A stretch of 64,000 bases of DNA from assembly GCA_009776955.1 (NCBI GenBank), contig WRMW01000008.1, positions 18,945-82,944 on the forward strand, given 5' to 3'. The stretch comes from Clostridiales bacterium. Its GTDB lineage: Bacteria; Bacillota; Clostridia; Peptostreptococcales; Anaerovoracaceae. The translations under genes were made by a program, and so were the position numbers. The notes under the pieces were generated by a model. That model was given only the letters and a program-made list of their open reading frames with translations, had not been told where the DNA came from and made no database searches. Below are positions 262-58,243 of the stretch, piece by piece. Positions within the stretch are counted from its first letter, which is position 1, and every line of letters begins with the position of its first letter.

Positions 262-2078
262 GGGGGCTGACGTTTGCCTACCCTGAGCGGGGGCGGGCGG
301 CGCTTTCCGATGTGTCGCTGTCGGTGGAAGCGGGCGAGTTTGTGGTGATATGCGGCAAGTCGGGGTGCGGCAAGTCCACGCTACTGCGCCACTTAAAGAC
401 AGTGCTTACGCCGTTTGGCAGACGGGAGGGCGAGGTGTTTTTTGACGGCCGCTTGGTCGAAAGCATTTCAAAGCGCGAGCAGGCCTCACGAATAGGCTTT
501 GTATTGCAGAGCGCCGAGAACCAGATTGTCACCGACAAGGTGTGGCATGAACTGGCGTTCGGTCTTGAAAGCCTTGGCGAGAAAACGCCTGTCATACGGC
601 GGCGCGTTGCGGAGATGGCGTCGTTTTTCGGTATTCAGGAGTGGTACGAGAAAAGCGTGTTCGAGCTTTCGGGCGGGCAGAAGCAGATACTTGCGCTTGC
701 GGCGGTGCTGGCCATGCAGCCAGATGTGCTGATACTCGACGAGCCGACGAGCCAGCTCGACCCGATTGCGGCAGAGGACTTTATAGAAACGCTAAAAAAG
801 ATAAATGATGAGATAGGCACGACCATTATCCTGTCCGAGCACAGGCTTGAGGGGGTGCTGCCGAGGGCCGACAGGGTGGCAGTGATGGCAGAGGGGCGGG
901 TGCTGTGCGAGGGGGGCGCGTCCGAGGTGGCGTGGGAGTTGAAGCGTCTGGGGGATCCGATGTTGACTGCTATGCCGACGCCGGTGCGGGTGTATTTGGC
1001 GCTGGAAGCAAGCCAGGCCTTGCGACGCGTCCGCAGAGGTTCTACCGAAAGGCTCGCTCCGCCTTCGTTTGGCTCCGCCTCGCTTTCGGTAACCCCTTGC
1101 TCCGCCTCGCGCCTTCGGCGCTCGACGCGAAGTCCCGGCTTTTCTTCGGTCCGGCAAGTGCCGCAGACTGTGCGGGAGGGGCGGGTTTATCTTGAGGGGA
1201 AGTACGCTGGACGTGGCGTGGACGGTGAGCGTGGCGTTGGTGGTGATGAGCCTGCTCGCAATAATGACGGTGCCACCCGCGAGCCTATTATCGAGATGAA
1301 GGAGCTGTGGTTTCGGTATGAGCGCGATGGGCGTGACATTGTGAAAGACCTTGCGCTCAATGTATATCCGGGCGAGTTTGTGGCAGTGGTAGGCGGCAAC
1401 GGCGTGGGCAAAAGCACCATGCTCGGCATCGTGGCCGGCGACAACAAATATTACCGAGGCAAGGCGCGTGTCCTCGGCTTCGACCCGAAAAAGGCTGACG
1501 GGCGGTGCCTTACCGACGCGGGCTTGGCTGTGTTGCCCCAAGACCCGCAGACATTGTTCACGCGCGCCACGGTCTTTGACAACCTTATAGATGTGGCAAC
1601 GGCCCATGCGAAACGGCGCGGCGAGCCTGCGAGCCCCGAAGAAATAGAAGCGGAAGTGTGCCGCGTCTGCGAAATGACAGACATAGTGAACCTGATGGGT
1701 TTTCACCCCTTTGACGTAAGCGGCGGCGAGCAACAGCGCACCGGGCTTGCGATGGCGTTGCTTACAAAACCAAAGTTATTATTGCTCGACGAGCCAACCA
1801 AGGGGATGGACAGCTTTTTCAAGGAGAAGTTTTCCGCAATACTGAAGCGTCTTTGCTCGGACGGGATTGCCGTGCTTATGGTCTCGCATGACGTGGAGTT
1901 TTGCGCGAAATATACAGACCGCTGTGCGTTGTTTTTCAATGGCGGCATCGTCAGCGAGGGCACGCCACGCAAGTTTTTCAGCGGAAACAGCTTCTATACG
2001 ACCGCCGCCAACCGCATGGCGCGGGGGTTGTTCCACGACGCGATCACCGCAGAGGAAGTCGTGGCTCTGCTTTTATAA
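249..2078 (+). CDS. ECF-type ABC transporter ATP-binding protein with two fused ATPase domains (CbiO/EcfA-EcfA' like)
   Basis: Two Walker A (GKSGCGKST, GGNGVGKST), two signature (LSGGQKQ, VSGGEQQ) and two Walker B (LILDEPTSQ, LLLLDEPTKG) motifs in one ORF; ATG at 249. Confidence 0.9.
   Translation: MFEVRGLTFAYPERGRAALSDVSLSVEAGEFVVICGKSGCGKSTLLRHLKTVLTPFGRREGEVFFDGRLVESISKREQASRIGFVLQSAENQIVTDKVWHELAFGLESLGEKTPVIRRRVAEMASFFGIQEWYEKSVFELSGGQKQILALAAVLAMQPDVLILDEPTSQLDPIAAEDFIETLKKINDEIGTTIILSEHRLEGVLPRADRVAVMAEGRVLCEGGASEVAWELKRLGDPMLTAMPTPVRVYLALEASQALRRVRRGSTERLAPPSFGSASLSVTPCSASRLRRSTRSPGFSSVRQVPQTVREGRVYLEGKYAGRGVDGERGVGGDEPARNNDGATREPIIEMKELWFRYERDGRDIVKDLALNVYPGEFVAVVGGNGVGKSTMLGIVAGDNKYYRGKARVLGFDPKKADGRCLTDAGLAVLPQDPQTLFTRATVFDNLIDVATAHAKRRGEPASPEEIEAEVCRVCEMTDIVNLMGFHPFDVSGGEQQRTGLAMALLTKPKLLLLDEPTKGMDSFFKEKFSAILKRLCSDGIAVLMVSHDVEFCAKYTDRCALFFNGGIVSEGTPRKFFSGNSFYTTAANRMARGLFHDAITAEEVVALLL
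1030..1150. repeat. In-frame palindromic, 'gctccgcct'-rich insert in the inter-domain linker of the ABC ATPase
   Basis: Inverted repeat taccgaaag...ctttcggta; gcgccttcggcgc palindrome; repeated (g)gctccgcct units; encodes low-complexity S/R-rich linker. Confidence 0.5.
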
Positions 2079-46455: not shown

Positions 46456-47925
46456 ATGGCAACGAAGGATAGTCTTGTGACTATATTCGGCAAAGCGAAC
46501 GTGCTGGACGACCCGGCTGTGCTCGCGGCGTATGCGAAAAGCCACAGCTTCGACCCCGGGTTCAAGCCTTGGTATGTGGTCAAGCCCAAGGATTCGGAGC
46601 AGGTCGAAAAGCTTGTGAAGTGGGCGAACAAGACGAAAACGCCGCTGGTGCCGGTCAGTTCGACGGGCGTGAAGCTGAGGGGGGACAGCGTGCCCAGCGT
46701 GCCCGAGGCGGTAGTCGTCGACATGTCGGGGATGAACAAGGTGCTGAATGTGAACAGGCAGCAGCGCATGGCGGTGGTGGAGCCGGGTGTGACATACGAC
46801 CAGCTCAACAAGGAGCTTGCGAAGCAGAAGATGACCATCCCGGGAAGCCTCAAGGCGAAAGCCGGGCAGTCGGTGCTGACCGATGTGGTGGAAGCCGTCC
46901 CGAGGCTCAACCCGATGATACAATGGAACTTTTTCGATCCGCTTCGCTGTGCGGAGATAACGTGGGGCGACGGGCAGCGGATGTTCACGGGCGAGGCCGC
47001 AGGCGGCCCGCGAGACCTTGAAAAACAATGGAACAACCAGACATGGCAAGTTCTGTATATGGGGCCGTGGATGACCGATTACTTCAGGTTTGTCACGCAG
47101 GCGCAGGGCACCATGGGCATAGCCACGTGGGTGTCGCTGAAGACGGCTGTGAAGCCTTTGGTCCATCAGCTCTTTGTTGCCGAGGCGGACGACCTTGCAG
47201 CGCTTGAATCATTTGTCTACAAGGCCATGTGGACGCGCTTTCCGGACGAGATATTCATTCTCAACAGGGCACAGGCTGCGAATGTCATGGGCAAGACGGT
47301 GGAAGAGATAGAGATGTTGAAGGAAGTCCTTCCCCCATGGATAGTGGCGGTCGGCGTCGCGGGCAGGGAGATCGTCCCCGAGGTGCGTTTCGAGGCTAGG
47401 TCCAAAGACCTTATCGACATCGCGCAGGCGAATGGGCTCGATCTGAAAGAGGGCATCTCAAACCTCAGCGGCAGGGCGCTCTACGAAGAGGTGAGCGGTA
47501 CGGACAAGGGCAAGACTTACTGGAAGGACGTATATGCTGGGAGCCACCAGAACGTTTTCTTCCTGACGCAGCTCGACAAGACGGGCATGTTCCTCAAGGC
47601 CGTCCGCGAAATTGCGGAAGACCTAGGCTACCCGACAGAGGATATCGGCGTCTATATCCAGCCCAAGCACTTGGGCAGCAGTTATCACATGGAGTTCACA
47701 TTCCCCTACGATCCCGACAGCGCGAAGCAAGAAGGCCGCGTGCAGGATCTGGTGGATGCGGTCAGCGTCGCGGTTTCCGACCTTGGCGGCTATTTTTCCA
47801 GGCCATACGGCAAATGGGCGGGCATCCAGCTCAACAAGGATGCTCAGTCTGCCAGCGCCCTCAAAAAGCTGCGCGAGATCTTCGACCCCGCTGACATAAT
47901 GAACCCCGGCAAGCTGCCTATTTAG
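46456..47925 (+). CDS. FAD-binding oxidoreductase (VAO/PCMH-type, GlcD-like)
   Basis: VVKPKDSEQVEKLVKWANKTKTPLVPVSSTGVK; C-terminal LREIFDPADIMNPGKLPI. Confidence 0.85.
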   Translation: MATKDSLVTIFGKANVLDDPAVLAAYAKSHSFDPGFKPWYVVKPKDSEQVEKLVKWANKTKTPLVPVSSTGVKLRGDSVPSVPEAVVVDMSGMNKVLNVNRQQRMAVVEPGVTYDQLNKELAKQKMTIPGSLKAKAGQSVLTDVVEAVPRLNPMIQWNFFDPLRCAEITWGDGQRMFTGEAAGGPRDLEKQWNNQTWQVLYMGPWMTDYFRFVTQAQGTMGIATWVSLKTAVKPLVHQLFVAEADDLAALESFVYKAMWTRFPDEIFILNRAQAANVMGKTVEEIEMLKEVLPPWIVAVGVAGREIVPEVRFEARSKDLIDIAQANGLDLKEGISNLSGRALYEEVSGTDKGKTYWKDVYAGSHQNVFFLTQLDKTGMFLKAVREIAEDLGYPTEDIGVYIQPKHLGSSYHMEFTFPYDPDSAKQEGRVQDLVDAVSVAVSDLGGYFSRPYGKWAGIQLNKDAQSASALKKLREIFDPADIMNPGKLPI

Positions 47926-47943
47926 CGGGAAAGGAGGATAGAC

Positions 47944-49272
47944 ATGGCAAAGAAATCACTATATGAAATGAAGCTCCCGAAAGGGTATGAGAAAAAGCTG
48001 GAAGACTTCTTCCCGATGGAACGCCGGTGCAGCAATTGCCTCGGGTGCAAGTTCGTGCCGTTCGAGAAGATCAAGAGCGACCGCTTCAGCCGCAATTGCC
48101 CGAGCGTTTGGTACTACAATTTCAATACTTACTCGGCTCGTGGACGTTTTCAGCTCGGCCAGAACATTATCGAGGACGGCTATGTAAAGTTCGAAGGACA
48201 GGCGCTTGAGGCGATATTCAATTGTCAGGCCTGCGGCGCCTGCGATGTGGGCTGCAAGATAACGCGTTTCAACCTTGAGCCGCTTGCGCACAATATCGCG
48301 CTGAAAGAGCGTGCGGTGGAGAAGGGCTTGGCCCCGGTCGAGCTTAAAGCAGCGGCGAACTCGCTGGCGAAGCAGAAGACCATGCTGCCGGATTGCAAGA
48401 AAGCGGATAGGGCGAACTGGGCTAAGGGGCTTGGACTCAAGGACGTTTCCGGCAAGGATACGGCCGAGTATGTGTTCTTCCCCGGTTGCCAATACGCATA
48501 TGACGCAGACCTCAAGAAGAAGGCCAAGACCTATGTCAAGGTGCTAAAGCAAGCCGGCGTAGACCTCGGATATCTCGGGAACCTCGATATGTGCTGCGGC
48601 GGCAGAGCCAAGCAAATGGGCTTCCGTGACGACTTCGAGGCGGCGGCTAAGGGCAACGGGGCGGCATGGGCCAAGGCTGGTGTCACCAAGATTGTCACGC
48701 CTTGCTCGGACTGTTACCACGCCATCAAGCGCCAGTACGCGCTGCTTGGCATAAAGGTCGAGGTGGTTCACGCGGTCGAGCTTATCGCAGAGTTGGTGAA
48801 GGCGAAGAAGCTCAAATTCAAGAAAAGCGTGGACAAGGCTGTCACCTATCACGATCCCTGCCACCTCGGTCGCCTCGGCGAGCCGCATGAGGACTGGAAC
48901 GGCACGGAAGTGAAGATACTCAACCAGATTCATACATGGGAGCCCGCCCGTCCGCGCTATGCCGGCACATACGGCATATATGATGCGCCGCGCGAGATAC
49001 TGGCAGCGATTCCCGGCCTGCGGCTTATCGAGATGGAGCGTTGCCGCGAGAATAGCTGGTGCTGCGGCGCCGGCGGTGGGTGTTCCGTGTTCAACCCGGA
49101 ATATTCAGACGCTATCGCATCCGAGCGCGTGACCGAAGCGCAGGCGACAGGCGCCGAAGCTATTGTGACGGCCTGCCCGTGGTGCGAAATCAACTTGAGT
49201 GGCATCGAGTCTGACAACGGCACATTCACCAATGTCGTCGACATCATCGATCTCGTCGCCAAGGCGCTGTAG
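47944..49272 (+). CDS. (Fe-S)-binding CCG-domain protein (HdrD/GlcF-like)
   Basis: CQACGACDVGCK ferredoxin-like motif; CCG motifs MCCGGRAKQ and SWCCGAGGG. Confidence 0.87.
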   Translation: MAKKSLYEMKLPKGYEKKLEDFFPMERRCSNCLGCKFVPFEKIKSDRFSRNCPSVWYYNFNTYSARGRFQLGQNIIEDGYVKFEGQALEAIFNCQACGACDVGCKITRFNLEPLAHNIALKERAVEKGLAPVELKAAANSLAKQKTMLPDCKKADRANWAKGLGLKDVSGKDTAEYVFFPGCQYAYDADLKKKAKTYVKVLKQAGVDLGYLGNLDMCCGGRAKQMGFRDDFEAAAKGNGAAWAKAGVTKIVTPCSDCYHAIKRQYALLGIKVEVVHAVELIAELVKAKKLKFKKSVDKAVTYHDPCHLGRLGEPHEDWNGTEVKILNQIHTWEPARPRYAGTYGIYDAPREILAAIPGLRLIEMERCRENSWCCGAGGGCSVFNPEYSDAIASERVTEAQATGAEAIVTACPWCEINLSGIESDNGTFTNVVDIIDLVAKAL

Positions 49273-49289
49273 GAAAGGAGGAAAGAATT

Positions 49290-50951
49290 ATGGCATTATC
49301 AAGGGATTTTTTCAGGGCGCTGGAAGATATCGTCGGCAAACGCAATGTTTCCGAAGACCCGGCAGTGACTGAAAATTATCGCTGCATCACTGCGCAGTCC
49401 TCCGCACACTACGGCCCCGTGAACACACGGACGCCGAAGCCGCTTGCGGTCGTACTGCCCGGAAGCACGGAAGAGGTGCAGCAGGTCGTCAGGCTTTGCA
49501 ACAAGTACAAGGTCGAGTTCAAGGCCGCGACCACGTTCTGGGCGGCGATGGGCTTTATCGGCAGCGACAACGCGATACAGATAGACCTTATAAGGATGCA
49601 GGGCATCGAAATCGACGAAAAGAACATGATTGCGGTGGTTGACCCGTTCGCGATCGGCGGTACGGTGCAGGTTGAGGCGATGAAGAGAGGGCTCAATTGC
49701 AATGTGGCAGGCGTCGGCTGTTCGAGTTCCACGCTGGCGGGCACCGCAGGCTGGGTCGGGTTCGGCCCCAGCTCCATATTTATGGGCATAGCCAGCGAGA
49801 ATCTGCTGGGCGCGGAGTGGGTGCTTCCTGACGGCGAGATATTGCGTACAGGCACGCTCGGCGCGGAGGGTGAATGGTTTTGCGGCGAAGGCCCTGGGCC
49901 GAGCACGCGCGGCATGCTACGTGGCTGGATGGGTACGGCTGGCACCATGGGCGTTTGTACGAGGATCGCCATACGCCTGCACCCCTGGCCCGGCCCCAAG
50001 TGGATACCGGTGCGCGGCACGGCTCCGCTCTATATGGCGGACGGCCTCGACAACGTACGTGCCTATACGGTCTGCCTTCCCGACTGGGAAGCGTACGCGA
50101 AATTGTTCCAGCTTTTCTACGAAGCGGACATCTGCTACCTTGCGCACAGGCAGTTCAATATGTTCGGGCGCGACATCAAGACCGCGATGGTGGAGATATT
50201 TACGCATCCTGAGCTGCAATTCCGCGATATTCCGCGCCTTGTGGAAGACCCGTATCTCAAGGAGCAGAACGCCCAGATGAAGGTCGATGTCCAGATAGTC
50301 ATGGCGGGCTTTTCGGATCGCGACCTCGACTATAAGGAGAAAGCGTTTGACGCCATCCTTGCGAAAGTCGGCGCGCATAAGTCCGAGTATTATCTGCAAC
50401 AAGATATCGAGGACTTTGTAAAGCTCTATCTGCTCCGTCTTGCTCGGAAAAATTACAACTACACCCTATGTTCGTCATACGAGGGCAACTTCGGACTCCA
50501 TCCCAATGTATGGAAAGCGGCACCCTTTATGGAAGAGGCCGCTGCGCTCAAACTCAAGTGGGAGCAGGAGCACACCGGCATCGCTGCGGTGGGCGGCGAC
50601 TCCGATATGGGTTCCGTTTCGGGCATCGGCGGCGGCGGCACGACGGGCTGGGAGTTCTTTGTGCACTTCGACGCTTTCGATCAGGAGTCCATCAAGAATG
50701 CGGATGCCCATATCGAAGATACCCAGAGGTGGATGTTCGAGAAAGGCCTTGGTGTGGACTTCGGACGCTGGAACGCGGATTGCCGCAAGAACAGCGGTTA
50801 CAGCTACACACAGGATGAGCACGACGCTATGTACAGCAAGCTCCCGCAGCCAGGGATAGCCACATATCAGTACAAGATACGCGAGGCGTTCAACCCGAAC
50901 CGACTGGGTGGAAGCTACTACAAGACCATGACCCCGCCAGAGTGCAAGTAG
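49290..50951 (+). CDS. FAD-binding oxidoreductase (VAO family, 4-cresol dehydrogenase-like)
   Basis: PLAVVLPGSTEEVQQVVRLCNKYKVEFKAATTFWAAMG; VGCSSSTLAGTAGWVGFGPSS; C-terminal IREAFNPNRLGGSYY. Confidence 0.83.
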   Translation: MALSRDFFRALEDIVGKRNVSEDPAVTENYRCITAQSSAHYGPVNTRTPKPLAVVLPGSTEEVQQVVRLCNKYKVEFKAATTFWAAMGFIGSDNAIQIDLIRMQGIEIDEKNMIAVVDPFAIGGTVQVEAMKRGLNCNVAGVGCSSSTLAGTAGWVGFGPSSIFMGIASENLLGAEWVLPDGEILRTGTLGAEGEWFCGEGPGPSTRGMLRGWMGTAGTMGVCTRIAIRLHPWPGPKWIPVRGTAPLYMADGLDNVRAYTVCLPDWEAYAKLFQLFYEADICYLAHRQFNMFGRDIKTAMVEIFTHPELQFRDIPRLVEDPYLKEQNAQMKVDVQIVMAGFSDRDLDYKEKAFDAILAKVGAHKSEYYLQQDIEDFVKLYLLRLARKNYNYTLCSSYEGNFGLHPNVWKAAPFMEEAAALKLKWEQEHTGIAAVGGDSDMGSVSGIGGGGTTGWEFFVHFDAFDQESIKNADAHIEDTQRWMFEKGLGVDFGRWNADCRKNSGYSYTQDEHDAMYSKLPQPGIATYQYKIREAFNPNRLGGSYYKTMTPPECK

Positions 50952-50982: not shown

Positions 50983-51008
50983 GGGAGTCCCTCTTAACGG
51001 AGGGACTT
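50983..51008. terminator. Bidirectional terminator-like hairpin overlapping the tetR stop codon
   Basis: AGTCCCTC-ttaacg-GAGGGACT between convergent operons. Confidence 0.55.
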
Positions 51009-51575
51009 CTTTGCGAGAGCGATATACTCGTCCATCTTTGCGGCGAGGTCGTATTTGCCCCGTGCGAGCACCCAGTCGAATAGCAGGCCTCTTGCCACAA
51101 TAAGCAGATAATCCACAACAAGGTCTTCGGTCGTGCCATCTCCGAACATGCCGTCGGCTATTGCCGCGTTTACAAGCCTGTGAAGGCAGACGTACATATA
51201 GCGGTCTTTGTCGAGGAAGAACTCCCCTTGGGTTTTCAGGATTGTGCCTGTGGGTTCATGCCCTTGCTCCACATGGAACTTTGCGTAATAGCGGAAGAAT
51301 GTGTCGATATCGGCGGCTACATCGCCGGAAAACTCCGGCGCGACCGTTTCCTCGTAGTAATAGTCTATCTGCTTGAACAGCTCCACCATGATGTCGGATT
51401 TTGAATTGAAATAATGATAAAACGCGCCGACCGAAACCCCTGCTTTCTTGCAGATCTCCTCGATTGTCACATTGTCGTAGCCATAGGCGTTTATAAGTTT
51501 TGCGGCGTTGTAAAAGAGCTTTTTGCGAGTCTTGATGGCTCTCAGCGAGCGATCAGTCAGGGGTTTTCTTGGCAA
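50994..51575 (-). CDS. TetR/AcrR family transcriptional regulator
   Basis: AIKTRKKLFYNAAKLINAYGYDNVTIEEICKKAGVSVGAFYHYFNSKSDIM; TTG start directly after upstream stop. Confidence 0.93.
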   Translation of the reverse strand: MPRKPLTDRSLRAIKTRKKLFYNAAKLINAYGYDNVTIEEICKKAGVSVGAFYHYFNSKSDIMVELFKQIDYYYEETVAPEFSGDVAADIDTFFRYYAKFHVEQGHEPTGTILKTQGEFFLDKDRYMYVCLHRLVNAAIADGMFGDGTTEDLVVDYLLIVARGLLFDWVLARGKYDLAAKMDEYIALAKKSLR

Positions 51576-54149
51576 TTACTTGTCCTCCATTAGCTGTTCG
51601 ACCTCGGCCATTTTGCCGTCGGCCAACTCCTTTGATATAAAGACTATACCACATTCTGGGCAGCGTTTGACCTCGTGGGAGAAAGTCATGCCCATATATG
51701 CGAACACTGTGTTTTTTTGTGCGAGAGGGATGTCGCACTTGGCGCAGATCCATTCGTTTTTGGGGGGGGTGATGGGGGGGTGACCAGGGGGTTGAGGGTG
51801 ACAGGTGGGGTCACTGGCGGCGGAGGTTGCTCCAGTCGCGGGGCGGTCACCGCCGGAAAAACGCATACGGTGGCTCCATGTGTCTATGATGGCGTAGGCT
51901 TGGGGTGTGTGTGCGGGAGCGGCGGCCGTGGGGGTGGCGGTCGGCGCCGTGTACTGCGCCCAGGTGGTAACGACATCGCGTATGAGGCAGCATTGCCGCA
52001 GTTCGCCGCCGTTCGGCGTTCCGTCCGGCAGGATAAAAAACTCGCCGCTTTGCTCGGCCTTGTATATCGCTTCTTTAAGGTCGTCGGCGAGTATAAGCCT
52101 GCCATCCATTTCGTGGGTGAGCGCAGGCGGGATGTCTATGCGCATGGCATCCCACAGGTTTTGGGCGGGGTCGTAGGCTTTGCCCTCGTAGAGCTCCATA
52201 AGCATGGCTTTGGTGCGTAATGCATTGTCGCGCCGTGCTTGCAGGCTTTCGCCTGCGGGGGTCTGCGGGTTTTGAGACCCGTCTGCCGATTCCGACAGCA
52301 CGAGGTCAAGTATATGCGCGTGCTCCTTGCCCTCCAAGGCGAAAGACCCTGCACAGTTCACGCAATACACTAGGTAGGGCGCTTCATCTGCCGAGCGTCT
52401 GTTTTCGACTATCACGTCGTACAGCTTAGGGTTCGCCGTTCGCATATGGCCGCCAAAGCCGCAGCAGCGGTTGCGTTCGGGAAGCTCGGTGAGTTTTATG
52501 CCGGCGTTTGTGGCGAGCTTGCGTACGGCCTGCTCCATTTCGGGGAAGTCTCTTGCGGTGCATGGGTCGAATACCGCATAGGGGGTGGCGGGGTCGTTTG
52601 CCACGGCGGGCGTTGCGGGGCTGCCTTTGCGTGTTGCGGCATCCGTTTCCGCCAGCGCTTCATAAAGCGACACGATTTCGACTTCGGGCAGAAACTCTCC
52701 GAACAGACGCATACAATAGGCGCACGCAAGTATGAACACGGGCTTCCCTGCCGCTTCCCATCTTTCGCGTATATAATGAAGCTGTTTGCGGAAGATAGCG
52801 TCCTCGCCCGCCCAATACGCAGGGACGCCGCAGCAGTCGAGCAGCACGCCCGCCCCGTACGCTTCCATTAATATAGAGGTCGTTTTTTCCGTTTGTGCGG
52901 GCGAGCGGGCGCCGAGCTTGCAGCCCGGGAAGAATATATAGCGTCGGTCGCTTCGCGAAACACCGTCTGGCAGGCCGGGCGCAAAGTACGAGCCCTCCGT
53001 GCTATGCCATTCAAGATCCCTAAGCCAGAAGTCGTGGAAGCCTTTTGGGTGCTTCCCCGTTTCCGCTCGCCCTGTCCTCGCCATGTAGAACACCTTTTCT
53101 AGGTCTATGCCTACGGGGCAGACCGCCTTGCAATGCCCGCAGAGATTGCATGAATAGGTCTGGCGGGTGAGCGAGCATGCAGAGAAGGGCGGGGCTGATT
53201 TTGTGTCGGTATATGCTTCAAGGGCTATTTTCTGCGGCCTTTTGGTGTAGCGTCCCAGCATTTCGCAAGCGTCCATGCAGATACGGCAGTCGCAGCCCAT
53301 GCAGCGTGAGGCTTCGGCGGAGGCCTCCTCCTTGGTATAGCCCGCCTCGGGGTCTGCCGCGACCACAATCGCCTTGCTCGGCTCGCCCTTATGGGCGACA
53401 TAGTGCTTTTCCGGTTTGGGCGGCGTGTCGCTGTCTTTCGGCCATTCACCGATTTGAAGCCATGTTTCAAGGGCTTTTGATTTTTCGATGCCCGCGGCTA
53501 TGGCATCCACCGCTCTGGGAGCTTCCGCAGACTCATAGCCCGCCTCCTCATCCCCCGTGGCGAAGTGTACGTAGTCAAAGCCTTCGAGCGCGGGGTCATT
53601 CTCCCCCTCTATCTCACGCCCATAGACAAAGTCCACATTGACCTGCGAGAACTGACGTTCGACTTCCTCCAGAAACTCGGCAAACTTAGGGTGCGATGCC
53701 CAGGTATAGAGCGCCTGTCCGCCACGCTCGAACACGGTCACAGGGTAGGCTTTCTGCGCCATGTTGAGGGCGAGCGAAAGACCCGACAGCCCTGCGCCGA
53801 CTATCGCGATGCTTTGGTCGCGCGGCGGTATGCGGTAGGTCTCAGGGGCACGGTCCTTGGCGAATCGCACGGCGGCAGCCTCGATGGAGCGGATGTCTAT
53901 AGGATTATCGCTTTCTATATGCCCGCGCTGGCATTCCGTACGGCAGGGCGCCTCGCATAGTTCGCTTACTATGGCGGGGAAAACCACGGCGTTGCGGTAG
54001 AGCTTGTACGCGAGCCCCCACTTCCCGTCGCGTGCGCGCGCCAGGAAAGTCCTTACGTCAAAGAAGAAAGGGCAGGGATGCGAACACGACGCGGGCTCCC
54101 CATGGAAGCACCGCGCCGTAATTGCTGTTGTGTCCTCTTGTCTCAACAC
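51576..54149 (-). CDS. Multidomain flavin/iron-sulfur oxidoreductase: GltD-like NAD(P)-binding + dicluster ferredoxin + CCG domain + C-terminal rubredoxin/zinc-ribbon-like domain
   Basis: IAIVGAGLSGLSLALNMAQKAYPVTVFERGG; CMGCDCRICMDACEM; CNLCGHCKAVCPVG; CCGVPAYWAG and CCGFGGHM; C-terminal WICAKCDIPLAQ...KRCPECGIVFISKELADGKMAEVEQLMEDK. Confidence 0.85.
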   Translation of the reverse strand: MLRQEDTTAITARCFHGEPASCSHPCPFFFDVRTFLARARDGKWGLAYKLYRNAVVFPAIVSELCEAPCRTECQRGHIESDNPIDIRSIEAAAVRFAKDRAPETYRIPPRDQSIAIVGAGLSGLSLALNMAQKAYPVTVFERGGQALYTWASHPKFAEFLEEVERQFSQVNVDFVYGREIEGENDPALEGFDYVHFATGDEEAGYESAEAPRAVDAIAAGIEKSKALETWLQIGEWPKDSDTPPKPEKHYVAHKGEPSKAIVVAADPEAGYTKEEASAEASRCMGCDCRICMDACEMLGRYTKRPQKIALEAYTDTKSAPPFSACSLTRQTYSCNLCGHCKAVCPVGIDLEKVFYMARTGRAETGKHPKGFHDFWLRDLEWHSTEGSYFAPGLPDGVSRSDRRYIFFPGCKLGARSPAQTEKTTSILMEAYGAGVLLDCCGVPAYWAGEDAIFRKQLHYIRERWEAAGKPVFILACAYCMRLFGEFLPEVEIVSLYEALAETDAATRKGSPATPAVANDPATPYAVFDPCTARDFPEMEQAVRKLATNAGIKLTELPERNRCCGFGGHMRTANPKLYDVIVENRRSADEAPYLVYCVNCAGSFALEGKEHAHILDLVLSESADGSQNPQTPAGESLQARRDNALRTKAMLMELYEGKAYDPAQNLWDAMRIDIPPALTHEMDGRLILADDLKEAIYKAEQSGEFFILPDGTPNGGELRQCCLIRDVVTTWAQYTAPTATPTAAAPAHTPQAYAIIDTWSHRMRFSGGDRPATGATSAASDPTCHPQPPGHPPITPPKNEWICAKCDIPLAQKNTVFAYMGMTFSHEVKRCPECGIVFISKELADGKMAEVEQLMEDK

Positions 54150-54164
54150 GCCACGCGATCAGGA

Positions 54165-57011
54165 CTAATGGCCGATATTGATCGGGTTGTCCTTGATGAA
54201 TTGCAATTCTTCCTCAAACTCCGAGCCGAGGAAGTATTTTGGCGGGGTAAGGCTTTCGCCTTTCTGCACCTTTTCCCATCCGGCCTTCACCTTGTCCGGC
54301 GTAGCAGGCAGCTCGTAGACGCGGACGCCTGTGGCGTTGTTGATGCCGTTGATGACCGCCATATGTTGCGAGCATTGGAAGTCCTCGGAGCAGCCGCAAG
54401 AGCCGAACGGCCCTTCGGGGCGCGGGTTCTCGACGAAGATAAGCTGCATATCGTCCGGCGTGTCCGTCGCCGTCGGCACGCCGCAGCCGATCATATTGTC
54501 GTACTTCTTCTCGGGGTGGTAGTTCTCCGACAGGGCGAAGCCTATAGAGTGGGACAGCCCGCCGTAGCCCTGGCCCTCGACCGAGAGCATATTGCCGACG
54601 GTGCCCACGTCCGCGACCGTCGTGTACCGCAGCACTTTCGTCTTGCCTGTTTCGACGTCCACCTCGACGAGTGCGGCGTTGACCGCATACATATACGTGG
54701 GGTTCTTCTCGCCCTGGCCCGTGTTGGGGTGGAGACCTGGTGGCAGGCCGATATTGAACTGGTCGTAGTGGCCGATATACTTGGTCGGAATGTTCTCGGC
54801 CGCCATTTCGTCGTGGGTGCGGTAAGTGCCGTCCGCCTTACGCATCGCGTCCATAAGCTGGTTTGCCGCGTCGATGGTGGCTCTGCCGTTCATGTAATGG
54901 GAACGGGAGGCTGCCGAAAGGCCTGAGTCAGGGCATTTGTGGCTGTCGTTCATCACGAGCCGCATCTGGGACGCCTTGACGCCGAGCGGCTCAAGCGCCT
55001 TGACCGCAAGCGTGAGTGCGCCTATGTCGCCGCCTTGCCCGACGTCCTGCCATGTGTTGTAGTGCGTGAAAGTGCCGTCAGGGTTGAGACCGAGCGCCAC
55101 TTCGCTCTTGTCGAACATTCCGATGGTGACGATAAAGCCGCCCATGCTCATGCCGACGCCAAGCTTGCGTCCGTCCTTCTTGCCGGCTTCCGCCTGCGCC
55201 TTGTACTCGTCGTAGACGGGCTTTATCTTTTCGAGCAGGTCTGGATAATAATAATCGTGGTAGGGGCAGCTGTTTATGGTGAGGTCGCCTTCGCGAGCTG
55301 CGTTCTTGTAGCGGAACTCCCACGGATCCATGCCCACGGCCTCTGCGGCCATGTCGATCAAGGCCTCTGTGGTCGTGTAGATCTGCGGCGAGCCGAAGCC
55401 CCTGTATGCGGTGTTGAAGTTGTGGTTGGACGAGCCGCCGCGGGCAAGCGCCTTGAAGTTCGGGATGTTGTAGCCGTGGAATCCGACCGACACCAAGTTG
55501 TTGAATATCTTGGAGCCGACTATGGCGTAGGCGCCGTGGTCGAGCGCGATGTCGTACTCGGCCGCGACTATCTTGCCGTCCTTGCCGACCGCTATGCGTG
55601 CGTTCGAGAACGTTGCCGAACGCTTGCCGCTGTTGTGGTTGAACTCCTTGTAAGTCATGGTCATCGTGCAGGGGCGCTTGAGCACCATCACCGCCGCAGC
55701 GACGAGCGCCATGCTGTTTGGCGTCGTGGAATAGCCGAAAGAGCCGCCTGTCGGGTTCATAACGAGGCGAAGCTTTTCTTCGTCCATGCCGAGGGCGTGC
55801 GCGATATGCTCGCGGTTCTCGCCTATGGCTTGCGACTTGCAGAGGATTGTAAGGTTGCCCTCGCTGTCATAGAAACCTTGAAGCACGTCAGGCTCTATTG
55901 GCAGATGCGGCTCGTGCTGGCTGTAAAACGAGCCTTCCGCCACGATAAGCCCGTCATCCTCAAATACCTCAAGCGTGTCCCTGCCCTTGAATACGGGTTG
56001 CTCCAAGTAAAAGTTCGGCAGATCTTTGTGGAGCTGTATGGCGTTGGGCATAAAGGACTCGACGATGTTCGCATAGGACGGCAGGGGTTCGATGTCGCAC
56101 TTGACCGCAAGGGCGGCGGCACGGGCCTCTTTCTCCGTCTCGGCGCAGACCAGAGCAAGCACGTCACCCATGCGGCTGAACTTCTCGCCGCAGATGATGG
56201 GGAACTCCGTGATGCCCTTGCCCTTGGTACGCGGGATGACCGCCGGGAAGTCTATATTGTTCGTGCCGGGGATGTCCTTTGCGAGCATCACCTTCACGAC
56301 GCCGGGCATCTTCTCGGCTTCGCTTATGTCGATATTCTTTATCTTGCCGTGCGTCGTCTCGCTGTACACGCCGACGAGGTGGAGCGTGCCTTCAGGCATC
56401 TTGAGCTTCACGTCATCGCCATAGTCGGTAAGGCCGGTGACCTTGCCGAGCGCGGCAGGGCGCGGATGCCTGCTGCCGTAAATCTCCTTTTCGCCCTCGA
56501 AGTCATAGGTGATGTCGGCCATGGTCTTTTCGCCGCGCATCACCGCCGCCGCTTCCATGACGGCGTCGACGATGGGTTTGTAGCCCGTGCAGCGGCAGAT
56601 ATTGTTGTTCTTCTTGAACCAGTCGCGTATATCCTCGCGGGTCGGCGAGGGGTTTTCCGTGAGCAGCGCGAAGGCCGACACGATAAAGCCCGGCGAGCAG
56701 AAGCCGCATTGCACGCCGCCGTATGTGATGAAGGCCTGCTGCAGAGGGTGCAGCCTGCCAGGCGCTCCGATACCTTCGATGGTGAGGATGTCGCAATGTT
56801 CGTCGACCTTTGAAATCTTGCGGGTGCAGCTGCGGACGGTCTTGCCATCCACCAGCACCGTGCATGCGCCGCAGACGCCGATATTGCAGCCGACCTTGAC
56901 GCCGGTAAGGCCGATCCTGCGTAGCACCCCCGCTAGAGTGTCCTTCTCCGTGTCCACGACAGCGTAGCGCTCGACGCCGTTGATATTGAAAGTCCTTCTC
57001 TCAAGTGTCAT
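54165..57011 (-). CDS. Molybdenum aldehyde oxidoreductase, Desulfovibrio MOP-like (two 2Fe-2S domains + Mo-binding domain in one chain)
   Basis: GLTGVKVGCNIGVCGACTVLVDGK, GGVQCGFCSPGFIVSAFALL, NNICRCTGYKPIVDAVMEAAAV, SRHPRPAALGKVTGLTDYGDDVKLKMPEGTLHL. Confidence 0.93.
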   Translation of the reverse strand: MTLERRTFNINGVERYAVVDTEKDTLAGVLRRIGLTGVKVGCNIGVCGACTVLVDGKTVRSCTRKISKVDEHCDILTIEGIGAPGRLHPLQQAFITYGGVQCGFCSPGFIVSAFALLTENPSPTREDIRDWFKKNNNICRCTGYKPIVDAVMEAAAVMRGEKTMADITYDFEGEKEIYGSRHPRPAALGKVTGLTDYGDDVKLKMPEGTLHLVGVYSETTHGKIKNIDISEAEKMPGVVKVMLAKDIPGTNNIDFPAVIPRTKGKGITEFPIICGEKFSRMGDVLALVCAETEKEARAAALAVKCDIEPLPSYANIVESFMPNAIQLHKDLPNFYLEQPVFKGRDTLEVFEDDGLIVAEGSFYSQHEPHLPIEPDVLQGFYDSEGNLTILCKSQAIGENREHIAHALGMDEEKLRLVMNPTGGSFGYSTTPNSMALVAAAVMVLKRPCTMTMTYKEFNHNSGKRSATFSNARIAVGKDGKIVAAEYDIALDHGAYAIVGSKIFNNLVSVGFHGYNIPNFKALARGGSSNHNFNTAYRGFGSPQIYTTTEALIDMAAEAVGMDPWEFRYKNAAREGDLTINSCPYHDYYYPDLLEKIKPVYDEYKAQAEAGKKDGRKLGVGMSMGGFIVTIGMFDKSEVALGLNPDGTFTHYNTWQDVGQGGDIGALTLAVKALEPLGVKASQMRLVMNDSHKCPDSGLSAASRSHYMNGRATIDAANQLMDAMRKADGTYRTHDEMAAENIPTKYIGHYDQFNIGLPPGLHPNTGQGEKNPTYMYAVNAALVEVDVETGKTKVLRYTTVADVGTVGNMLSVEGQGYGGLSHSIGFALSENYHPEKKYDNMIGCGVPTATDTPDDMQLIFVENPRPEGPFGSCGCSEDFQCSQHMAVINGINNATGVRVYELPATPDKVKAGWEKVQKGESLTPPKYFLGSEFEEELQFIKDNPINIGH

Positions 57012-57064: not shown

Positions 57065-58243
57065 TTAAAAATCAATATCGGTGCCGTCGTAAATGCATTG
57101 CAGCACCTTCTTCATCGTATCAAGCTCAATCTTGCGCGGGTTGCTTATAAGCAGCTCGTCCTTCATGGCGTTGGCGGCTATTTCGTCCAGCTTTGCGTTC
57201 CATTCCGCTTCCGGTATGCCGTATTCCTTGAGGCTCTTCGGCGAGCCGAGGGAGCTTGCGAAAGCCCGTACCTTGCTGACAAGGCCGGCAACGAGCTCAT
57301 CGTCCGTGGCGCCGCACACACCTACATACCTTGCCATCGCGACGTACTTCGCCTTGGCTTCCGGCATCGTGCTGTTGTATTGGATGACATAGGGTATGTA
57401 GATCGAGTTGGCGAGCCCGTGCGGGATATGCCCATCGTCGAACATCCCGCCTGTCTTATGCGCCATGGCGTGGCTGAGGCCGAGCATCGAGCTTGTGAAC
57501 GCCATGCCTGCTAGGCACTGTGCATAGTGCATCGCCTCTCTCGCGCCGGGGTCGCCTTCGTAGGCTGCGGACAATGTGTCAAATACGATCTTGGATGCAT
57601 ACAGCGCGTCCGCGTCCGAGAACGGGGAGGCAAACCTTGCGACAAAAGCTTCCAAAGAATGCGAGAGCGCATCGAGCCCTGTGTGCGCCGTAAGCGTCTT
57701 TGGCATGGTGTCCGTGGTGTCTGGGTCAAGTATGGCAATGTCAGGAATGATGTCGAAGCCGGCAACGCCAAACTTGATGCCCGTCGAATAATCACATACG
57801 ACGCTTGCATTCGTGACCTCGCTGCCCGTCCCGGATGTCGTCGGAATCGCGACGAAACGCGCCTTGTTCCTCAAGGGGGGCATATTGAATGGATTGATAT
57901 TGAAGATGTCGGCGTCCGGATGCTCGTACAGCACCCACATGGCCTTGGCAGCGTCCATGGGAGAGCCCCCGCCGATAGGGATGATCCAGTCAGGCCCGAA
58001 GGCTTGCATCTCCGCTGCGCCTCTCTGGACGGTCTCGACGGATGGGTCTGGCTCCACGCCCTCGAAGATATAGACTTCAAGTCCGGCCTCTTTCAGATAG
58101 CCTGTCGCTTTGTCAAGCACGCCGGATTTTCTTACCGAGCTGCCGCCCATGACGATAAACGCTTTCTTCCCGTCAAGCGTCTTAAGCGCGTCCAGACAGC
58201 CGCGTCCAAAATAGATGTCCCTTGGTGTAGTGATTCTTGGCAT
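57065..58243 (-). CDS. Iron-containing alcohol dehydrogenase
   Basis: GGGSPMDAAKAMWVLYEHP, IPTTSGTGSEVTNASVV, LGLSHAMAHKTGGMFDDGHIPHGLANSI. Confidence 0.95.
   Translation of the reverse strand: MPRITTPRDIYFGRGCLDALKTLDGKKAFIVMGGSSVRKSGVLDKATGYLKEAGLEVYIFEGVEPDPSVETVQRGAAEMQAFGPDWIIPIGGGSPMDAAKAMWVLYEHPDADIFNINPFNMPPLRNKARFVAIPTTSGTGSEVTNASVVCDYSTGIKFGVAGFDIIPDIAILDPDTTDTMPKTLTAHTGLDALSHSLEAFVARFASPFSDADALYASKIVFDTLSAAYEGDPGAREAMHYAQCLAGMAFTSSMLGLSHAMAHKTGGMFDDGHIPHGLANSIYIPYVIQYNSTMPEAKAKYVAMARYVGVCGATDDELVAGLVSKVRAFASSLGSPKSLKEYGIPEAEWNAKLDEIAANAMKDELLISNPRKIELDTMKKVLQCIYDGTDIDF

Follow-up and report, generated by a model that had tools for sequence, protein, structure and literature searches.

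How does a MOP-type molybdopterin aldehyde oxidoreductase hand on its electrons, and why are two of its presumed helpers encoded here as one protein? The natural electron partner of these enzymes has so far been guessed at (flavodoxin, in vitro). The 64,000-nucleotide stretch of DNA analysed here (the window), from a Family XIII-type genome (Clostridia), carries a mop gene followed by a gene that the first-pass annotation described as an unusual fusion of redox proteins, forming an electron wire for the aldehyde oxidoreductase. We find this to be half right: on our best reading, a recurrent fusion tethers a docking or redox module to the multi-cluster electron partner of MOP.

As had been claimed, positions 51576..54149 contain a single uninterrupted frame of 857 codons; it has a GTG start and lies on the minus strand, a plus-strand reading of the same positions being ruled out by 11 stops. 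Families were assigned with Pfam and NCBIfam profiles at curated cut-offs (530 for NF045663, 60 for NF045645 and 1100 for NF045668). Residues 1-764 of the predicted 857-aa chain match NF045663, an FAD/Fe-S/CCG oxidoreductase (DIC), at 554.5 bits; residues 799-857 match the DVU_1557 family (NF045645; PF24292, DUF7479), and the chain ends in ADGKMAEVEQLMEDK. The proposal that a dicluster-binding oxidoreductase is fused to a small redox protein thus holds, and both partners do stand alone beside mop in most relatives. "Unusually fused" is apt for the DVU_1557 addition and not for the rest: the combination of GltD-like, ferredoxin and CCG parts is the standard NF045663 architecture, and stand-alone members of ~750 aa are common.

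All parts of the chain are encoded on the minus strand. It begins with a Fer4_20 domain (GltD/DPD domain II; residues 4-98, 53856..54140; Pfam and alignment) with conserved cysteines 14, 22, 26, 65, 69 and 73. Next comes a truncated FAD-type Rossmann domain (residues 112-~204, 53538..53816; alignment and model), which keeps GxGxxG and ATG and lacks the later GG segment. Of the GltD-like NAD(P)/flavin N-terminus first proposed, Fer4_20 and a portion of a single FAD Rossmann domain therefore stand, while the NAD(P)-binding part falls: the NAD(P) domain that GltD-type enzymes carry within their FAD domain is absent from the window protein and also from its relatives, in which the alignment shows a short stretch from ATG to GG. 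GltD-type structures match over ~170-220 residues (about a third of the solved structure, the start of GltD only) at ~22-25% identity. An identity as NAD(P)H reductase was rejected because the NAD(P) domain is missing. The later GG segment is present in 32 of 37 relatives; it is missing from the window protein, from loci L036, L039 and L102, and from a second copy in the window genome (contig C6). The AlphaFold2 model of the whole chain (mean pLDDT 89.9) drops to low confidence at residues 201-210, exactly where this segment is gone. Given the missing segment and the low local confidence, this protein might be unable to bind flavin.

A two-cluster ferredoxin segment had been noted and is found as a 4Fe-4S dicluster (residues 279-349, 53103..53315; Cys 283, 286, 288, 291, 295 and 334, 337, 340, 344); the HdrB/D-like CCG domain noted with it consists of two CCG motifs, the first with Cys 410, 439, 440, 476 and 479 (52692..52940) and the second with Cys 530, 562, 563, 596 and 599 (52335..52580), each invariant in 37 relatives (Pfam and alignment for all three). 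Together, 25 cysteines (6 in Fer4_20, 9 in the dicluster, 10 in the twin CCG motifs) are kept in the window protein and in 35-37 of the 37 relatives. The NF045663 C-terminal domain (51855..52262; NCBIfam, alignment and model) is without conserved cysteines and has a conserved HRM motif at its end. Cys 325, 720, 721 and 783 show no conservation in the alignment of 37 relatives, and the "Cys-containing middle segment" of the first-pass annotation dissolves with them, C720/C721 being present in 8 of the 37. Separately, two NF045663 proteins (L105 and L094) have lost three dicluster cysteines, SCxxCG having become NMDNLSG or SASNLAG with the other cysteines kept; judged by these sequences, their branch would represent a stepwise loss of the second ferredoxin cluster.

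Between the two families lies a linker of 32 residues, rich in Pro, Thr and Ala (51759..51854; GGDRPATGATSAASDPTCHPQPPGHPPITPPK), whose DNA holds a C7 and a C8 tract and weak tandem repeats. It is predicted to be disordered (pLDDT < 50 at residues 770-790), with high confidence on both sides, the DVU_1557 domain being well defined again beyond it. The latter (51579..51758; Pfam/NCBIfam, alignment and model) is the C-x2-C/C-x2-C domain noted earlier; at 81.4 bits it belongs with the stand-alone mop-linked proteins. Its CxxC...CPxC cysteines are invariant in 30 aligned relatives. Modelled alone, the domain folds into a ribbon of two strands followed by the C-terminal helix. Its best Foldseek matches in the PDB are zinc proteins, namely the N-terminal domain of MqsA and the zinc finger of ZifS (prob 0.93-0.99, TM 0.43-0.55, marginal E of 0.02-0.1). 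DVU_1557 profile matches in the PDB are likewise mostly zinc-finger proteins with weak E values. No rubredoxin is among the structure matches listed, and a rubredoxin identity was rejected.

These likenesses bear on what the domain does. In the model it appears most like a zinc ribbon, albeit by a weak match, so that electron carriage by it is an assumption. It could be a purely structural zinc ribbon, serving in docking or in maturation and assembly (e.g., cofactor or cluster insertion), with the fusion merely fixing stoichiometry; the strongly conserved E..EDK of its C-terminal helix, which resembles a binding surface, would suit such a role. However, a CxxC/CPxC site can hold iron equally well, as in rubredoxin, and the model would suit zinc and iron alike. 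NCBIfam does call NF045645 a "redox protein", but this is a name and not a test of activity. On balance, we rate the structural reading as a strong contender that falls somewhat short of even chances. At the other extreme, the domain might be a tethered single-metal shuttle, swinging between a [2Fe-2S] cluster of MOP and the Fe-S centres in the NF045663 portion, and so provide a physiological, single-chain outlet for MOP other than flavodoxin; this we regard as doubtful.

Our preferred reading, in which the tethered domain assists an electron partner of MOP, draws on the gene neighbourhood. The minus-strand order, from upstream to downstream, is iron-containing alcohol dehydrogenase (57065..58243), MOP (54165..57011), fusion gene and TetR regulator (50994..51575). 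The MOP homologue, a relative of the D. desulfuricans and D. gigas aldehyde oxidoreductases (AORs), matches NF045668 at 1125.8 bits. One Glu aligns between PFGSCGCSED in the window and PFGASGVGEM in the Desulfovibrio enzyme; this we take to be the catalytic Glu, its position being kept. The fusion gene starts 15 nt downstream of mop, and the TetR gene begins at the base after the fusion-gene stop codon. By profiles and locus comparison, six related loci (L099, L116, L037, L113, L100 and L109) likewise have a TetR gene after the cassette, and in L102 it adjoins mop. Wherever the contig extends far enough, MOP, DIC and DVU_1557 genes are almost always neighbours, and the window genome encodes only two MoCoBD proteins, each with such a cassette.

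Converging on these genes is a plus-strand operon (46456..50951; profiles) for an FAD_binding_4 protein, a CCG iron-sulfur protein and a second FAD_binding_4 protein, which is similar to D-lactate dehydrogenases and, to a lesser degree, to vanillyl-alcohol oxidase and 4-cresol dehydrogenase. In two other genomes of the family (L100 and L113), the CCG and second FAD_binding_4 proteins adjoin the mop cassette, with 79-84% identity to those of the window. Judging from gene content, this operon and mop probably belong to one pathway; the adjoining genes and the likenesses of the FAD protein suggest that it makes an aldehyde and then oxidises it.

The alcohol dehydrogenase gene, which also adjoins mop in two congeners, can be read the other way: electrons would enter MOP and drive the reduction of carboxylic acids to aldehydes, which the dehydrogenase would turn into alcohols. 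D. gigas-type AOR, though, is a known aldehyde oxidiser (PMC10223205), the FAD site of the window protein is eroded, and a low-potential donor is only hypothetical, all of which makes such reversal rather improbable. Weaker still is the notion that the fusion is a frameshift of sequencing or assembly: in the three nearest relatives (L036, L099 and L037) the frame does stop once past the HRM motif, and the linker does contain C7 and C8 tracts and weak repeats, but no single indel in these tracts restores two genes, with a stop codon to end the first and a start codon to begin the second. Indels able to split the gene fall outside homopolymers (further upstream or before the HRM motif), and nine other loci carry fused forms with similar linkers; a homopolymer artefact is not supported and an indel artefact of any kind is unlikely.

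The fusion is not unique. At the level of whole genomes, DVU_1557 matches occur in 19 of 300 in a sample of the phylum, 17 of 391 in the class and 40 of 199 in the window's family; counted from the family list, 8 of the family's 70 above-cut-off loci are fused, in frames of 665-1051 aa, and two more fused copies lie outside the family (G208 and G294). On a tree of the part shared by fused and split proteins (47 rows), the two states are interspersed, with 7 changes of which at least 6 are forced by well-supported branches. A scan of genome contigs returned two relatives only. On the tree, the sister of the window protein is a split copy (L036, 63% identity), followed by L099, its orthologue in congener G691, which is split as well. 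The second cassette of the window genome (contig C6, L009) is split, while its counterpart in G691 (L111) shows the reverse state, fused. Split states within fused clades could be reversions. In split loci, dvu usually starts no more than ~35 nt from the dic stop codon, often overlapping it, which makes in-frame joining an easy step.

Three observations lie to the side of this. Firstly, the L036 contig comes from a bin labelled Acidobacteriota; its mop gene is 84% and its redox gene 63% identical to those of the window, and the contig is likely either mis-binned or a recent transfer. Secondly, L044 (G141) has a tandem pair of DVU_1557 genes together with a complete oxidoreductase and another CCG copy that is cut short at its N-terminus (394 aa). 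Thirdly, a GC-rich repeat of ~150 bp (encoding LRRVRRGAAERLATASQSSASASLSETPCSASRLRHSTRSPG) sits in frame within at least 12 open frames of the window genome: at 1008..1148 (+) in the window, between two halves of an ABC ATPase, and on contigs C1, C2, C4, C6, C7 and C15 (L121-L134). Other hosts include, by eye, IspG-like and UDP-sugar enzymes, and the redox protein copy on C6 holds two. None was found in three congeners. The fold z-score of the repeat is modest (-2.3); the repeat is reminiscent of the palindromic elements found inserted in coding genes of Rickettsia.

From the observed sequences, domains, operon and recurrence of the fusion we infer a complex, and consider it fairly probable that MOP and its NF045663 partner pass electrons from aldehydes to the CCG sites with the assistance of DVU_1557, the last two being joined here. 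MOP would be the catalytic subunit, and the operon-encoded partner would replace the subunit that carries FAD in enzymes of the xanthine-oxidase type. Electrons would run from the MOP [2Fe-2S] clusters into the partner, through its 4Fe-4S clusters and on to the twin CCG sites, whose acceptor would be either a quinone in the membrane or a thiol/disulfide carrier; DVU_1557 would help this contact, acting in docking or as a module with a single metal. In the window lineage, DIC and DVU_1557 would have become joined in frame via the flexible linker, from an ancestor with abutting or overlapping genes, and would therefore be made 1:1. The partly deleted FAD domain and the weak likeness of DVU_1557 to the MqsA zinc domain count against this explanation. 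As to the sink, the window genome encodes a UbiA prenyltransferase and a polyprenyl synthetase, clustered with HdrABC-like and molybdopterin-oxidoreductase genes, and no RnfC above cut-off was found in it (an absence that is not firm in a 91%-complete assembly); on this gene content a quinone sink is possible, although the presence of UbiA does not prove a quinone.

A gene set that is conserved across Clostridia, and in which the same two proteins are repeatedly fused, argues for action in one complex; the fused forms offer single-chain constructs with which this idea is more easily tested. The literature search returned no mention of the families by accession, as DUF7479 or by family phrase. 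By term count, papers on DVU1557-1559 contain passing mentions only, and the passages seen of the sigma54 regulon, selenium trait and D. gigas genome papers contain no description of the cassette.

How, then, does the locus compare with known systems? Desulfovibrio MOP (PDB 1dgj, 1sij) aligns with the window homologue over 4-909 (E 1.9e-248). That AOR is without FAD, flavodoxin substituting in vitro and being taken as the partner (PMC10223205), whereas the window has an NF045663-type partner gene. With GltD, NfnL and StnABC-type subunits, the partner has Fer4_20 and the start of the FAD Rossmann domain in common, but not the NAD(P)-binding domain. From the NF045663 entry (pyridine nucleotide-disulfide oxidoreductase/dicluster-binding protein, diclust_near_Sec) it differs by the extra C-terminal domain and the partial loss of the FAD domain; from usual DVU_1557 proteins, which are stand-alone and of ~60-90 aa, by being a domain, with the four Cys and the EDK end retained. 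The closest described set is that of C. ljungdahlii (CLJU_RS11830/11825/11820/11815), reported in 2017 to comprise an AOR, a fused FAD/CCG protein and a four-Cys protein (PMC5640608). There, the CCG pair was proposed to pass electrons to a membrane-bound carrier, in an organism said to be without genes for known quinones (PMC5640608). The four-Cys protein is separate in that set, its fusion is not described, and a C_GCAxxG_C_C protein is the fourth member (PMC5640608). Set beside these systems, the window locus is no new machine but a small variation, arisen repeatedly, on a gene set already known.
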